Source: Gammaproteobacteria bacterium
Lineage (GTDB): Bacteria > Pseudomonadota > Gammaproteobacteria > GRL18
NCBI GenBank assembly: GCA_016744395.1
Contig: JADGEK010000044.1
Coordinates: forward strand, 1 to 34,042
Direction: 5' to 3'
Length of the DNA stretch: 34,042 nt
Shown in pieces: positions 5,135 to 12,322 of this stretch. The notes under the pieces are model-generated. The model saw nothing but the letters and a program-made list of their open reading frames with translations, was not told the DNA's origin and ran no database searches. Position numbers and translations under genes: made by a program. Position 1 is the stretch's first letter; every line of letters starts with the position of its first letter.

Positions 5135-7537
5135 TTAACTTAAATAGGATTTAATATCCACTTCATCAATTTGTTCCTTTTTGAGGAACTTTTCAGCATA
5201 TTCTTTATAAACGCCCGATTGTAGAAAAATGTCAAATATTTTAGCGTCAATGTGCTGATCTTTTTTCATAAAGCTCATGATGTGTAAGGCTTCTGAGAGT
5301 GTTTTACCTTTTTTATAAGGTCTATCCGATGCCGTGAGTGCTTCAAAAATATCTGCAATCGCCATGATGCGCGCAGGTATCGACAGTTGCTCTTTATTTA
5401 ACTGGCGTGGATAACCTGTGGCAATCATGGTTTCATGATGAGTGCCTGCATACTCAGGTATTTTCTGCATATGATCTGGGAAGGGGAGCAACTCAAGCAT
5501 CTTAATTGTCATAATGACATGCTCATTAATTTTAAACCGTTCCTCATTTGAAAGAGTGCCTTTTTCAATACAGAGATTGTACAGTTCTCCGTAATTGTAT
5601 AAATACTCAGGCACATCCAGTTTAAAGCCCTGTTCTATATAGGCTTGTTCATCAAAGTCTACTCGCTCAACCAGGTGCTCCTCTTTATCATTGAGCAATT
5701 GTTCAGTAACAGGTAATGGTTGCTCTTCAATTTTTTCATAGCGAAGAAGTTCAACCTCTGAAAGGCCTGCTCGATCATTAAAATGACGCAGCCAGGTACG
5801 CTGCGCAATGGCCTGGACACGTGCTTTTTTGTCAGCACTCATGAACTCCCCACCAATATTCATTTCACTGATAAAGTTGAAGTCATCCATTAACGTTTGA
5901 TGTGCCTCCTGCCTCCATTGTTCAAGTGCATCAGGGTTCGGTTCTTGTGCTAAACGTTGAAAATATTCAACATCAATGTCTCGCCAAAGAATTTCAAAGC
6001 GGGTACGAATTTCATGAATTCGATTATAAATGATTTCCAATTTAGTCGATTTATCAACGACGTATTCTGGCGTGGTCACCTTACCGCAGTCATGCAATAA
6101 AGCGCCCATCTCAAATTCACGCCAGTCATCCTCAGTTGCTAAGCTGAAAGATTTGAATTCATCGCTATCGCACTCATCGATAACTTTTGCCAACATCATT
6201 GCTACGTCTGGTACACGTTGACAATGACCGCCAGTGTAAGCGGATTTTGAGTCAATGGCTTCAGCAATAAGGCGAATAAATGAATCCATTAATTCCTGCT
6301 GTGCTTTTTGATAATCATGAATGCTCTGCGACATGGATACCATGGATTTTGAAAGGTCGAATAATTCAACAATATTCGTATCAATCAGTTTAACTTCCGT
6401 AAACTGGCGTTCCTTAATTTTATTGTTTTGTATCATCAGAGCTTTAATGGGTTTAATAATACGTGATGTCATGAATAGAATAAAAGGAATGGTAAACATT
6501 AAAAAAATAAGTGCAGTGGCGGTTGAATAATAGATATTTTTTAGGTAAGGATTGAGGATGATATCAGAGTCAATACTAATGCCAATATGTGTATCAATCT
6601 TGTGTTCTCTTGAAAGGGTGGTGATAATTAAAAATTTGTCTTCAGATAGATTGGTATAGTGGATAAACTGATTGGTTTGGCCATTTTTTATTGTGTCTAT
6701 AAAAAAGTTGCTCAGTGCTTCGCTTCTTGGTTTTACGCTATCATCATCCGTGTTTGAAGAAGCAAAGATATTGCCATAGCGATCAAACATGATCAGTTCA
6801 CTACTGGGATCCAGTTTTTCATTTCTTAAGAAACTATTCAGCTTTGATAATGTAAAATCAATGGCCAAGACGGCTTGTGAGCCATTAATCTGTTTTGCAA
6901 AGGTAATTCCTTTTTGCTGAAGGCTGGAAAATAGATAGGGATCAGTTCTTGTTGCCTCAGGATTTGCTGATGCCTGAATAAACCAGGGGCGCTGGTTAGC
7001 AAAGTAAGTCGATTGCTCTGTCTTACTGGATATACTCTTCAAATTGATATCATAAAAATCAAATTGGCGGATTCTCCCAGTCTTTTTATTGTCTGGATTG
7101 AGTACTTTTATAATGGTCCAGCGTGTTTTTTCTGGTGCATTAAAGTGTTGATGCAGTTTATTAGATGATTTCATATTAATGATTTCAAATAAGTCACCAT
7201 TTTCATGACCTACGTATATGGCATAAATATTAGGTGAGCGCTGCATGTTCAAGGTAAAACGTTTAAATGTTGTTTCAAGATGCCGAGGATGATTGGGTGG
7301 CAAACTCAGATCAGGATATAACTCGGTGAGATAGAGCATTTTTTTGGTCAGAGTATCACCCGATTGAATGTGTTGAGTTATTTTATTTGCTGTTTGAGTA
7401 AATGTTTTATAAGCTGCTGATATTGCCAATTCTTTACTAAAATAATAGCCTAAACTTAATAGTGATGCTGAAATGATGGCAATGACAATCAGAAAATGAG
7501 TGAGAATATTGGTGCGAATTGAGACAGGAGCGAGCAT
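5135..7537 (-). CDS. Membrane sensor c-di-GMP phosphodiesterase: Cache, HAMP, HD-GYP with insertion
   Basis: An 800-residue inner-membrane protein. Helix 1 is at about 11-32, a periplasmic Cache-type sensor region at 35-335, helix 2 at about 337-357, then a HAMP-like linker (RIIKPIKALM). The cytoplasmic HD-GYP domain keeps the metal-binding and signature residues: H438 (TGGHCQRV), H482-D483 in LLHDCGK, H673 (NEHV), H700-H701-E702 and G708-Y709-P710 in HHETMIATGYP. It should hydrolyse cyclic di-GMP in response to a periplasmic ligand. The segment between the HD pair and the next conserved histidine is about 190 residues, well over the usual span, because of an acidic, Glu/Gln-rich insertion at roughly 515-650. 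No partner genes adjoin it. Confidence 0.9.
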   Translation of the reverse strand: MLAPVSIRTNILTHFLIVIAIISASLLSLGYYFSKELAISAAYKTFTQTANKITQHIQSGDTLTKKMLYLTELYPDLSLPPNHPRHLETTFKRFTLNMQRSPNIYAIYVGHENGDLFEIINMKSSNKLHQHFNAPEKTRWTIIKVLNPDNKKTGRIRQFDFYDINLKSISSKTEQSTYFANQRPWFIQASANPEATRTDPYLFSSLQQKGITFAKQINGSQAVLAIDFTLSKLNSFLRNEKLDPSSELIMFDRYGNIFASSNTDDDSVKPRSEALSNFFIDTIKNGQTNQFIHYTNLSEDKFLIITTLSREHKIDTHIGISIDSDIILNPYLKNIYYSTATALIFLMFTIPFILFMTSRIIKPIKALMIQNNKIKERQFTEVKLIDTNIVELFDLSKSMVSMSQSIHDYQKAQQELMDSFIRLIAEAIDSKSAYTGGHCQRVPDVAMMLAKVIDECDSDEFKSFSLATEDDWREFEMGALLHDCGKVTTPEYVVDKSTKLEIIYNRIHEIRTRFEILWRDIDVEYFQRLAQEPNPDALEQWRQEAHQTLMDDFNFISEMNIGGEFMSADKKARVQAIAQRTWLRHFNDRAGLSEVELLRYEKIEEQPLPVTEQLLNDKEEHLVERVDFDEQAYIEQGFKLDVPEYLYNYGELYNLCIEKGTLSNEERFKINEHVIMTIKMLELLPFPDHMQKIPEYAGTHHETMIATGYPRQLNKEQLSIPARIMAIADIFEALTASDRPYKKGKTLSEALHIMSFMKKDQHIDAKIFDIFLQSGVYKEYAEKFLKKEQIDEVDIKSYLS

Positions 7538-7728: not shown

Positions 7729-8529
7729 TCAGGCTACCTTTTCAGGCAGGGCATGGCGCTCATACAAGAATCTTAAAACCTCACTTCTATAATGATTATA
7801 TTGAGGATCATCTGCCAATTCTATTCGGTTTCTAGGGGCATCGAGATCAACACTTAGAATTTCACCAATGGTTGCTGCTGGACCATTGGTCATCATGACA
7901 ATGCGATCAGACAAAAGAACTGCTTCATCCACATCATGAGTGATCATAATAATGGTGTTACCTAAGTTATCCTGAATTTCCATTAATGAATCTTGTAGAT
8001 GTGCTCTGGTTAATGCATCCAATGCACCAAAAGGTTCATCCATTAACAAAACTTTTGGTTGCATCGCTAAAGCCCTTGCAATGCCTACTCGTTGTTTCAT
8101 CCCTCCAGAAATTTCAGAGGGTAATTTATGTATTGCATGAGACATATGGACGAGCTCAAGATTGTGCTTAATCCAATCTTTAATTTCAGCTTTGCTTTTG
8201 GTTCCCTTAAAAATTTGATCAACGGCCAACTGAACATTTTGATAAGTGCTTAACCAGGGCAAAAGTGAATGGTTTTGAAATACAACGGCACGTTCAGGCC
8301 CGGGTTCATTGACCTCTTTGCCATCTAAAATGACTCCACCCTCGGTTGCCTGATGCAGACCAGCAATGATATTTAGGACCGTGGATTTACCGCAGCCTGA
8401 GTGACCGATTAAGGAAACAAATTCCCCTTTGCTAATACTAAGATTGATTTTATCGAGTGCTCTATAAGGCCCGTTATCGGTTGGGAAGTCTATGGTGACT
8501 TCTGTTAAGACTAAATGTTCATTTTGCAT
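7729..8529 (-). CDS. nrtD: Nitrate ABC transporter ATP-binding protein
   Basis: 266 residues with all ABC ATPase motifs: Walker A GHSGCGKST at 42-50, Q-loop Q85, signature SGGMKQR at 141-147, Walker B VLLMDEP at 160-166 and switch H198. The closest pattern is the NrtD/NasD/CmpD branch (RAVVFQNHSLLPWLSTYQNV, MTNGPAATIGE). There is no C-terminal solute-binding domain as in cyanobacterial NrtC, so a homodimer of this subunit would energise uptake. It is the last gene of nrtA-nrtB-nrtD, 34 bases after the permease gene, with AGGAA upstream of its ATG. Substrate nitrate (or nitrite) is inferred from the NasT control of the operon; bicarbonate or cyanate relatives share the same fold. Confidence 0.88.
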   Translation of the reverse strand: MQNEHLVLTEVTIDFPTDNGPYRALDKINLSISKGEFVSLIGHSGCGKSTVLNIIAGLHQATEGGVILDGKEVNEPGPERAVVFQNHSLLPWLSTYQNVQLAVDQIFKGTKSKAEIKDWIKHNLELVHMSHAIHKLPSEISGGMKQRVGIARALAMQPKVLLMDEPFGALDALTRAHLQDSLMEIQDNLGNTIIMITHDVDEAVLLSDRIVMMTNGPAATIGEILSVDLDAPRNRIELADDPQYNHYRSEVLRFLYERHALPEKVA

Positions 8530-8563: not shown

Positions 8564-9649
8564 TTATCTGAGAATGGCATTCTTATCCCAGCTGACCTTT
8601 TTTTGTAATAGCAGCATACCCTTATCCAGAATATAGCCGATGAGCCCAATGACTATAACGGCCACCATAATACGACCTAGTGAGTTTGAACTGCCATTTT
8701 GAAATTCATCCCAGACAAATTTACCTAAGCCCGGGTTTTGGGCTAACATTTCTGCGGCAATGAGAACCATCCAACCAATACCAAGCGATAAGCGTAAGCC
8801 ACCAAAAATCATAGGCATTGCAGAAGGTAAGACAATCTTTTTGACTTTAGTTGGCCAATTTAAGCGTAAAACCTGACTGACATTAAGCAGATCAGAATCA
8901 ATCTGTGAGACACCAATGGTGGTGTTAATCACAGTGGGCCATAGACTGCATAAAGTAACGGTAACTGCTGAAATAATAAATGCCTTGGGCATTATGGGAT
9001 CACTGCTCACCACTACTGCGCTGACAATGATTGTCACCAGAGGCAACCATGCCAGAGGAGAAACAGGTTTAAATACTTGAATAAGCGGGTTCATTGCAGC
9101 GTATAGACCAGCGCTCATACCACAGATTATCCCTAATGGAATTGCAATGATTGAAGCCAGCAGAAAGCCTGTCATTACAGTAATTAAACTGGTTGTTATT
9201 TGCTCAAAAAAAGTAGGGCTGCCTGTATATGGGCGAATTTTTACTTTTGCATCTGGATTGTTTGCTAATTTTTTGGCATTACGTTTTTCTTGACGTTCAT
9301 AAAATGCAGCTTCTTTTTTGCGTTCGTTTCTATGCTCTTGTATGAGTCCATCAAATTGAGTCCAGACTTGTGATGGTCCTGGTAGTGTGCCCAAAGAGGT
9401 TTCAACCTGTGATGCACCAATATGCCAGACACATAGGAAGAGCAGAATTCCTATCATAGGAATAAGCATTGTCCTAATGAAGGCCATTTTCTGGATTCGT
9501 TTGAGTTCATCATAGGGGTCTTTTCTATGCTTTATGGTTTCTATTTGGGCTTTTGATGTTTCTGCTGACACGATGGTTAACAGCTTTGGCGCCATATCAG
9601 ATTGTTCCATTTTAAGTGCTTCTGAAGGTGATAAACTGATAGAATTCAT
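8564..9649 (-). CDS. nrtB: Nitrate ABC transporter permease
   Basis: 361 residues. After a long cytoplasmic N-terminal tail comes a first membrane helix (about 59-78), then a charged, Lys/Glu-rich stretch (105-140), then the BPD_transp_1 core of five helices between about 150 and 350. The coupling loop lies near 255-280 (VSQVLRLNWPTKVKKIVLP), matching the NrtB/TauC/SsuC family, followed by GGLRLSLGIGWMVLIAAEM, typical of NrtB. It forms the channel for the substrate delivered by the binding protein. It is placed between nrtA and nrtD with a stem-loop in the preceding gap, suggesting differential expression relative to nrtA. Confidence 0.88.
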   Translation of the reverse strand: MNSISLSPSEALKMEQSDMAPKLLTIVSAETSKAQIETIKHRKDPYDELKRIQKMAFIRTMLIPMIGILLFLCVWHIGASQVETSLGTLPGPSQVWTQFDGLIQEHRNERKKEAAFYERQEKRNAKKLANNPDAKVKIRPYTGSPTFFEQITTSLITVMTGFLLASIIAIPLGIICGMSAGLYAAMNPLIQVFKPVSPLAWLPLVTIIVSAVVVSSDPIMPKAFIISAVTVTLCSLWPTVINTTIGVSQIDSDLLNVSQVLRLNWPTKVKKIVLPSAMPMIFGGLRLSLGIGWMVLIAAEMLAQNPGLGKFVWDEFQNGSSNSLGRIMVAVIVIGLIGYILDKGMLLLQKKVSWDKNAILR

Positions 9650-9738: not shown

Positions 9739-11154
9739 TTAAATCTTACTCTCCTCCTTCAGACCAATACTGAACTTTTCAATGTATTCATTGGGCTTTG
9801 TACCATCATAAGTAACTCCATCAATGAATTCTGTTTGTGGCGCTTTAAAGCCATCTTCTTTATCAAAATCAGGAAATTCATCCGATTTCATTTTGCCTTC
9901 AGTAATTAATTCTTTAGCAGCTAAAGCATAGATATCAGGGCGATAGACTTTTTTAGCGATGTCCATATACCAACTATCTGGTTTGTGCTCAGAAATTTGT
10001 CCCCAACGTCTCATTTGAGTGAGGTACCAGATAGCATCACTATAATAAGGGAATGTCGCGTTATAACGGAAAAATACATTGAAGTCCGGCACTGCTCGTT
10101 TATCTCCTTTTTCATATTCAAAAGTACCCGTCATACTATTGGCAATGACTTCATAGTCCGCACCAACATAGTTGCTTTGTGCAAGGTATTTAACGGCTTC
10201 AGGACGATTTTTATTATTGCCTTCATCCAACCATTTAGCAGCACGAATCATGGCTTTGACCACACGAATATGGGTGTTAGGATATTTATCTGCCCAAGCC
10301 TGACTCACACCAAACACTTTTTCAGGATTGTCTTTCCATATTTCATAGTCAGTAATGACAGGGACACCAATTTTTTTGAATACGGCCTGCTGGTTCCAGG
10401 GTTCACCAACGCAGTAACCATTAATGGTACCTGCTTCCATCGTGGCGGGCATTTGCGGAGGTGGTGTCACAGAAAGCAATACATCCGCATCGATAATGCC
10501 TGAGGTATCACCCTTGTGAGGGGCATAGTAGCCAGGGTTTAAACCACCAGCGGCTAACCAATAACGCAGTTCATAGTTATGAGTCGAAACAGGAAAAACC
10601 ATGCCCATTTTAAAAGGCTTACCATCATCTTTATATTTATCAACGACGGGTTTTAATGCTTTTGCACTGATAGGGTGGACAGGTTTTCCATCTTTTTCTG
10701 GAATGTTAGATTTCATTTGTTGCCAAATGTTATTGGATACAGTAATGGCATTACCATTTAAATCCATGCTGAAAGCCGTAATAATGTGTGCTTGCGTACC
10801 ATAGCCAATCGTTGCTCCAAGAGGCTGACCTGCTAGCATATGAGCACCATCTAATTGGCCGTCAATGACACGATCCAATAGTACTTTCCAGTTAGCCTGA
10901 GCCTCAAGGGTAACGAAAAGACCTTCATCTTCAAAAAAACCTTTTTCGTAGGCGATTGCTAATGGGGCCATATCTGTTAACTTAATAAAGCCAAATTTCA
11001 AATCTTCTTTTTCAGGTTCACCAATATCAGCTCTTACGGTGTTCATGAACATTAAACTGCTGCTTAAAGCAATCGCTGTTCCTACTGCCAAGATTGATTT
11101 CTTAAGAAAGTATCTTTTGTTTTTGGCAAATGTGTTGGTTATAAAAAAAGTCAT
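9739..11154 (-). CDS. nrtA: Nitrate ABC transporter periplasmic binding protein
   Basis: 471 residues from the ATG at 11154, which has AAAGG eight bases upstream; the open frame extends to 11208 but that part lies at the terminator of the leader. A Sec signal peptide is present ([20 protein letters not shown]), with cleavage likely after NTVRA. The mature protein is a NrtA/CmpA/NasF type binding protein: [50 protein letters not shown] and the C-terminal [18 protein letters not shown] are all characteristic. The presence of a signal peptide separates it from the cytoplasmic nitrate sensor NasS. It captures nitrate in the periplasm for NrtB-NrtD. It is the first gene of the operon and the direct target of the attenuator in its leader. 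Confidence 0.9.
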
Positions 11155-11206: not shown

Positions 11207-11258
11207 AAAAAAAAGCGCCCATAGAGTAGGTTAATGATTTAACCATTCTATGGACGCC
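11207..11258 (-). terminator. Leader terminator (attenuator) upstream of nrtA
   Basis: On the minus strand, GGCGTCCATAGAATGGTTAA (11258-11239) pairs with TTAACCTACTCTATGGGCGC (11234-11215) around a 4-base loop, with a few mismatches, and is directly followed by eight T (11214-11207). This is a strong intrinsic terminator placed about 50 bases before the nrtA start and after the promoter, so transcription must pass it to reach the operon. Confidence 0.88.
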
Positions 11259-11304
11259 TTTGTCCTGTAAGAAGCAGTGCAAATAAAAGACGCCATTGCC
11301 TTTT
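11252..11304 (-). promoter_or_regulatory. ANTAR (NasT) target: tandem hairpins with A-N-N-G-N-N hexaloops
   Basis: Two hairpins follow each other in the leader RNA. The first (11304-11285) is AAAAGGC, loop AATGGC, GTCTTTT: seven pairs including one G-U. The second (11265-11252) is GGAC, loop AAAGGC, GTCC: four pairs. Both loops are six bases long with A in position 1 and G in position 4, the diagnostic pattern of RNA bound by ANTAR domains. The second hairpin shares 11252-11258 with the 5' arm of the terminator, so the two folds exclude each other. Binding of NasT would hold the second hairpin and let polymerase continue into nrtA. The 19-base linker fits a variable spacer. Confidence 0.78.
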
Positions 11305-11360
11305 TTGTTTACTTATCTGCTTCAGTTATCATCTGCTGATGATCAATTTGTGTTATAAAT

Positions 11361-11378
11361 TTAGCCTTCAATGGCTAA
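11361..11378 (-). promoter_or_regulatory. Third hexaloop hairpin in the nrtA leader
   Basis: TTAGCC, loop ATTGAA, GGCTAA: a perfect 6-bp stem whose 6-base loop again has A at position 1 and G at position 4. It lies about 57 bases before the tandem pair and may be an additional or alternative ANTAR contact. Chance is possible but the match to the loop rule is exact. Confidence 0.5.
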
Positions 11379-11445
11379 GCTCATAAAGTGATATAATTTC
11401 TGTTACTAATATAGTCTCTTAAATTAATTTGCTTGAAATAAGTGT

Positions 11446-11461
11446 AGCAATTGATATGCCA
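11446..11461 (-). promoter_or_regulatory. Sigma-54 (-24/-12) promoter of nrtA
   Basis: TGGCAT-ATCAA-TTGCT on the minus strand matches the consensus TGGCAC-N5-TTGCW with the required ten bases between GG and GC. Transcription would start near 11435, giving a leader of about 280 bases that contains all hairpins described here. Confidence 0.75.
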
Positions 11462-11572: not shown

Positions 11573-11625
11573 TAAATTTTATACTATGATTATTTTGGTG
11601 CACCTTTTTTTGATGAGGTGTTGGA

Positions 11626-12216
11626 TCAAATGACCATTTCCATGACATCAATCAGGCTTTGAGCAATATCAGCCATACTCTTGCTTTTATCCATCGCCAT
11701 TTTTCGAATGACATTATAGGCTTCCTGTTCGTCCATATTCTTGCTCTTCATTAAAATCCCCTTGGCTTTGTCTATGAGCTTTCTATCTTCTAGTTGTTGA
11801 CGGGTTTTATGTAACTCATCAGCAATGGACTGAAAGCGCTTAAAACGGCTAATGGCTATTTCAATAATCGTTTTAATTCTTTGGGAGTTAAAACCATCTA
11901 CAATATAAGCATTGACTCCAATCTTTACTGACTTATCAATTGCATCACTACTGTCATCATTAGTAAACAATATGACAGGGCATGGTTTGCTTTGTACCCA
12001 GGACGCTATGGTATCCAGATAAAGCGTTTTAACTTGTCTGAATTGGCCAATAAGGGCGGATGCCGATTGATAATATTCCGGTGCTTCAAGACGCCCCTGT
12101 TTGATATTGATGGTTTCCAGTACATCAAAACCATTATTGACTAAAGCTTCCTGGAGTTCACAACTGTTTTCATCATCTGAATCAATGACTAAAATGACTT
12201 TTGTTTTTTCTTTCAT
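11626..12216 (-). CDS. nasT: Nitrate-responsive ANTAR antiterminator, NasT type
   Basis: 196 residues from the ATG at 12216 (a TTG at 12258 is the only earlier start; neither has a good ribosome-binding site). Residues 6-125 are a receiver-like domain, and about 140-195 an ANTAR RNA-binding domain (DRKLIDKAKGILM, DEQEAYNVIRKMAMD, ADIAQSLID). The overall order, with VNAYIVDG and AISRFKRFQ between the domains, is that of NasT. Where a receiver would carry the phosphorylated aspartate after strand 3 the sequence reads SALIGQ, so it should not be phosphorylated. NasT is normally held by the nitrate sensor NasS, which is not seen here. It lies just upstream of nrtA, whose leader carries matching RNA hairpins. 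Confidence 0.85.
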   Translation of the reverse strand: MKEKTKVILVIDSDDENSCELQEALVNNGFDVLETINIKQGRLEAPEYYQSASALIGQFRQVKTLYLDTIASWVQSKPCPVILFTNDDSSDAIDKSVKIGVNAYIVDGFNSQRIKTIIEIAISRFKRFQSIADELHKTRQQLEDRKLIDKAKGILMKSKNMDEQEAYNVIRKMAMDKSKSMADIAQSLIDVMEMVI

Positions 12217-12322
12217 TTTTAACTGGAAGCAATAACAATGCCAGTATTCAAAATTCAATATTGCTTTTATATCCTTGTTTGATATTATCTCTCATTGACT
12301 CTGGCTAATTTTAGGAATTCAC

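Follow-up and report, generated by a model that had tools for sequence, protein, structure and literature searches.

Organization of the nasT-nrtABC locus

The DNA analysed here (the window, 34,042 nt of a gammaproteobacterial contig) carries a nasT-like regulator gene followed by a leader and three genes of the nrtABC type. The leader and these genes read on the minus strand, with the leader placed between the nasT-like gene and nrtA. The genes and promoter-type elements are as follows:

11626-12216, minus strand: nasT-like gene, pseudo-receiver plus ANTAR domain (Pfam ANTAR PF03861, 72.8 bits, E 1.9e-20)
11591-11602, minus strand: presumed NtrC-like half site TGCACCAAAATA (from sequence; by eye also in the related leaders L003 and L005)
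11446-11461, minus strand: presumed sigma-54-type -24/-12 element TGGCATATCAATTGCT (TGGCAT and ATTGCT invariant in four leaders)
9739-11154, minus strand: nrtA-like gene for a nitrate-binding protein with signal peptide (PF13379, 337.6 bits)
8564-9649, minus strand: nrtB-like permease gene (ntrB TIGR01183, 153 bits, under the model cut-off)
7729-8529, minus strand: nrtC/D-like ATPase gene, 266 aa (ntrCD TIGR01184, 351.8 bits, over the cut-off)

By their domain matches, the nrtA, nrtB and nrtC products form an ABC transporter of the nitrate type. The ATG of nrtA at 11154 is preceded by AAAGGT, and an alternative TTG at 11208 falls inside the terminator described below. For nasT, the start is the ATG at 12216; a TTG at 12258 opens a longer reading frame. 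An initial annotation of this DNA had placed nasT directly upstream of the leader, and the ANTAR domain match bears this out. A gene for a dCache/HD-domain protein (5135-7537) is found 3' of nrtC and also in the closest relative, G004. It was considered as a part of the system and set aside, since it is a neighbour in G004 only and is absent from that place in G005 and G014.

By its expected design, this operon responds to nitrogen limitation through its promoter and to NasT through its terminator. This two-level design follows from the presence of the sigma-54-type element and the NtrC-like half site upstream, both of which we assign from general knowledge of such sites. In the related leader L004 the half site reads TGCACTAAAATA (by eye).

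Architecture and predicted folding of the leader

Known ANTAR dual-hexaloop RNAs, namely the eutP, nasF and amiE leaders recognized by EutV, NasR and AmiR, have in common with the window leader a pair of hexaloops with A in the first and G in the fourth position (A1/G4), C-G closing pairs, a second hairpin that overlaps the terminator, and an ANTAR regulator encoded adjacently. In contrast to these leaders, the window leader has, in addition, an A1/G4 hexaloop further upstream, a spacer hairpin of its own and, beneath P1, a basal helix that covaries. Its elements are:

11355-11385, minus strand: P0, third hexaloop hairpin, loop AUUGAA at 11372-11367, C-G closing (folding, conservation)
11328-11343, minus strand: Px, spacer hairpin AUCAUC-AGCA-GAUGAU between P0 and P1, not ANTAR-like (four-leader alignment)
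11271-11323, minus strand: P1, basal helix GAAGCAG/CUGCUUC, apical stem-loop 11304-11285, loop AAUGGC (folding, covariation)
11252-11265, minus strand: P2, antiterminator hairpin GGAC-AAAGGC-GUCC (-4.0 kcal/mol; invariant in four leaders)
11207-11261, minus strand: intrinsic terminator, 15 bp plus inner stem plus U8 (-26.4 kcal/mol, z -8.9 versus shuffles; conserved)

The three hexaloop hairpins described in the initial annotation are all present, each with A1/G4 and a C-G closing pair, and the overlap that it had reported between the second hairpin and the terminator is likewise found, as the 5' arm of the terminator contains the P2 loop and the P2 3' stem. Its limits for the leader (11207-11378) are correct except at one end, where 11378 trims the lower stem of P0, which reaches 11385. 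It had missed Px, the covarying basal helix of P1 and the conserved sigma-54-type promoter. Px was considered as a fourth ANTAR hairpin and rejected, since its loops are of 4-5 nt and lack A1/G4.

In an attenuator of this type, P2 and the terminator are expected to exclude each other. In partition functions the closing pair of P2 has a probability of 0.99 before the terminator 3' arm is made and of 0.00 afterwards, and P0 (1.00) and P1 (0.92) are folded with and without that arm. The 221-nt leader as a whole folds at -65.6 kcal/mol (z -7.3), which was equalled by none of 200 shuffles. The apical stem of P1 (7 bp) and the stem of P2 (4 bp) both exceed the 3-bp minimum for ANTAR targets. The linker between P1 and P2, which measures 19 nt linearly from the P1 apical stem and 5 nt once the basal helix forms, fits the range of 2-25 nt given for dual-hexaloop targets (PMC8164766). 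The leader thus combines the tandem A1/G4 hexaloops, C-G closing and P2/terminator exclusivity by which ANTAR dual-hexaloop RNAs of the antitermination class are recognized. A search of Rfam 15, which apparently holds no ANTAR model, gave no match at the gathering score and chance-level matches below it.

In a one-mismatch P2 scan of the window genome, a P1/P2 pair was found at the nrtA locus only. On contig 115 of the same genome (G000; L160, 182-2917), a gene for a NasA/formate-dehydrogenase-like protein, whose C-terminal region is BFD-like, is divergent from one for an MFS transporter. Common control of this reductase gene by NasT was considered and rejected, as the region upstream of it carries no hexaloop pair.

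Conservation of the leader within the genus

A protein search identified three relatives, all from one genus, in which the order nasT-leader-nrtABC is identical to that of the window; their leaders, L003, L004 and L005, lie on contigs of genomes G004, G014 and G005, respectively. P1, P2 and the terminator are conserved nearly letter for letter in the three relatives, and the C-G closing pair is invariant for P0, P1 and P2 across the four leaders. The initial annotation had named loss of the loop A and G, or of the overlap with the terminator, in homologous leaders as the observation that would count against it. L003, L004 and L005 keep both, with A1 and G4 retained in all three hairpins. Three pairs of the P1 basal helix are altered on both sides among the four sequences, i.e. 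the helix covaries, and Px has a constant stem with a variable loop.

P0 is conserved in position and loop type while its stem sequences have diverged. Its loop reads AUUGAA in the window and AAUGAU, AAUGUU and AAUGAC in the relatives, and the spacing from the P0 loop to the P1 loop is 75 nt in the window and 76 nt in the three relatives. In the four-leader alignment, one apical pair of P0 (183-192, CG/UA) is changed on both sides. The lower stem is paired in 60.5% of alignment cells of the four sequences, and pair counts give it no support. A weak A1-U6 pair could close the loop further in L003 and L004.

Its anatomy, its conservation and the ANTAR gene next to it give good support to a reading of the leader as a transcription attenuator of the ANTAR type for nrtABC. 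On these grounds the initial designation as a NasT-type attenuator stands, with the caveat that NasS was not found (see below). Among 16 genomes searched in the genus, the nasT-nrtABC unit was found in only 4, and this patchy distribution suggests gain or loss by transfer.

A third hexaloop in other families

Leaders beyond the genus were collected from Gammaproteobacteria and other Pseudomonadota with a P1/P2-core pattern that requires AANGGC loops and misses divergent leaders. The survey comprised 49 leaders with a terminator; removal of one whose terminator was not convincing left 48 from 20 families, the family labels being those assigned by the search tool. A third loop was scored when an A-N-N-G-N-N hexaloop with C-G closing and a stem of at least 4 bp occurred within 130 nt upstream of P1.

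Such a loop is found in 14 of the 49 leaders, against a mean of 0.98 and a maximum of 6 leaders in shuffles; any other class of first and fourth bases is found in at most 2. Because leaders inside one family are related, counts were also made at the level of families. An upstream C[ANNGNN]G is present in 6 of the 20 families versus 0.87 expected, a number reached in 0 of 1000 shuffles, and the other 15 loop classes occur in 0-2 families each. One of the six families (f65) has a weak third hexaloop that may be due to chance (ACGGAT, 4 bp). When stems of at least 5 bp are required, five families retain an A-N-N-G-N-N loop, compared with one for the other 15 classes combined. In family f64 the third loops lie at one spacing and read AAAGGC, ACUGGC, ACCGCU and AUUGGC; positions 2, 3, 5 and 6 vary, and exactly A1 and G4 are fixed.

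As judged from these sequences, third hexaloops recur across families, and the majority of families are without one. The three-loop form is therefore recurrent, and the idea that three hairpins might be special to the window leader does not hold. The open-licence literature searched describes no ANTAR leader with a third A1/G4 hexaloop, which is weak evidence of novelty. The three-hairpin leader looks like a recurrent form of a known RNA switch that has apparently gone undescribed. Search models built on two hairpins miss part of these three-loop elements.

The NasT regulator and NasS

The NasS-NasT systems of Azotobacter, Paracoccus, Pseudomonas and Bradyrhizobium share with this locus a NasT with receiver-like and ANTAR domains, an attenuator of a nitrate operon and NtrC-type control. 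The window NasT is nevertheless distant from those proteins: it is 79, 67 and 64% identical to the NasT of the three relatives and 31-32% identical to other NasT, and where the receivers of other NasT have the phosphoacceptor Asp, the four clade members all carry Gln. Its ANTAR domain resembles by sequence those in the PdtaR, EutV and NasR structures. Residues R142, E160, Y164 and M172 of EutV, as well as K143 and K147, contact G4 or are essential (PMC8934654), and in the alignment their equivalents are retained in the window NasT. The EutV backbone-contact residues N173, R175 and R177 are replaced by D, S and S.

These genomes differ from the known systems also in that no NasS, a cytoplasmic sensor resembling NrtA, was found. 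In the window genome (96.6% complete) the sole strong PF13379 (NMT1_2) protein is the signal-peptide-bearing NrtA, and a PF13379 search gave the same result, NrtA as the sole strong match and no NasS, in the nasT-bearing relatives G004 and G014 (99% complete) and G005 (95%). By comparison, NasS proteins encoded next to nasT in other genomes score 254-287 bits with this model. Other solute-binding proteins (L043, L042, L007, L008 and L141) were considered as NasS and rejected because of signal peptides or other transporter-like loci. NasS was also not found in 8 of 12 further genomes examined (G025, G044, G176, G360, G408, G417, G311 and G051). All eight have an nrtA attenuator, and their sole strong NMT1_2 protein is a signal-peptide-bearing NrtA beside the leader.

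In Paracoccus, loss of NasS results in constitutive nas expression (PMC3795266). In the window genome NasT may be modulated by its own level or by another partner, or there may be no control by nitrate at all. More generally, wherever NasT occurs and NasS is not detected, the nitrate signal itself calls for an explanation.

Possible roles of the third hairpin

How an ANTAR dimer uses its two hexaloops is unsettled, and the older view holds that both are bound simultaneously. In contrast, the structure of EutV with RNA suggests that the hexaloops are bound one after the other: binding needs no more than one hexaloop, and P1 recruits the dimer and hands it to P2 (PMC8934654). In that model P1 of the EutV target already serves for recruitment, and a hexaloop further upstream would fit as another such hairpin. 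P0 is probably a third docking loop for NasT. The initial annotation had suggested that the third hairpin might be a second docking site, and the enrichment of A-N-N-G-N-N hexaloops across families, a sequence-level result, supports this. On balance, we favor an attenuator in which P0 docks NasT and acts, most likely, as a further hairpin for recruitment, located 5' of P1.

Under this model, transcription would start at the sigma-54/NtrC promoter, and when active NasT is absent the terminator (11261-11207) would form. Active NasT would dock on the A1/G4 hexaloops of the nascent RNA and hold P2, thereby blocking the terminator. P0 would load NasT onto the RNA ahead of P1 and P2 synthesis and so raise the local NasT concentration, while Px and the P1 basal helix would act as folded spacers that bring the hexaloops nearer each other. 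P0 would be dispensable for the mechanism as such, because the majority of the surveyed leaders are without it. Whether P0 could hand NasT directly to P1 in the window is doubtful, because 75 nt exceeds the linkers that are known to work in EutV leaders. Leaders found in nature, whose hexaloops number two or three and lie close together or far apart, offer a ready series for testing the binding mode of ANTAR proteins.

The main rival to extra recruitment arises because P0 and P1 outlast termination as an intact pair: the terminated leader, with P2 buried, might keep NasT in trans through P0 and P1, giving a threshold or feedback. Partition functions show P0 and P1 folded in the terminated RNA for 16 of 16 three-loop leaders, and the P0 and P1 loops of family f64, whose spacing of 24 is close to the 21 of P1-P2, make up a standard-looking dual motif by themselves. 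In the window clade, however, 75 nt and the Px hairpin separate the two loops, and only one NasT-type target was found in the window genome. The EutX/Rli55 RNAs sequester EutV in a like manner (PMC5821096) and have in common with the leader ANTAR docking hairpins able to act in trans as a sink; they differ in that the window hairpins are part of a cis leader, and no Rfam match to a cobalamin riboswitch was found in the window. With no NasS found, titration of the regulator could set its activity. Taken as the role of P0 in the window, retention in trans appears unlikely to us, if worth serious attention.

A more speculative extension is that three-hexaloop leaders form a recurrent class in which a NasS-free NasT is governed by RNA dosage, with the leader setting a threshold that replaces the sensor. 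Nascent leaders would pre-load NasT, and terminated leaders would retain it, by way of the extra hexaloop. We give this broader proposal a rather small chance.

P0 could also be a product of chance, or a relic, whose loop merely fits the loose A-N-N-G-N-N rule. About 1% of dinucleotide shuffles of the upstream segment of the window leader yield a P0-like hexaloop hairpin, and in three of the four leaders P0 has just 2-3 apical bp before a mismatch or bulge. Against this, P0 is present in 4 of 4 leaders at fixed spacing, and its loop class is strongly enriched across families relative to the 15 control classes and to shuffles, which makes coincidence quite improbable. The initial annotation had also suggested a switch partner. 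Such a role, in which P0 would fix the default state by pairing with P1 or P2, is scarcely credible: GCCAUUG in the window P0 is a perfect 7-nt complement of CAAUGGC in P1, but this complementarity is not conserved (at most 5 nt in L003, L004 and L005), and predicted ensembles show P0 and P1 as separate hairpins.

Other candidate regulators

In family f22 (L064, L065, L093 and L095), a membrane protein gene neighbors nasT. One genome of this group (G429; L093, contig 27) has two NasT-type leaders about 1.2 kb apart, at 1519 and 2677, and one of the two precedes the membrane protein gene itself. This membrane protein could be a replacement sensor. The window genome also encodes a second ANTAR response regulator, which lies beside a PAS-type histidine kinase (G000 contig 212; L002, 1-1689).
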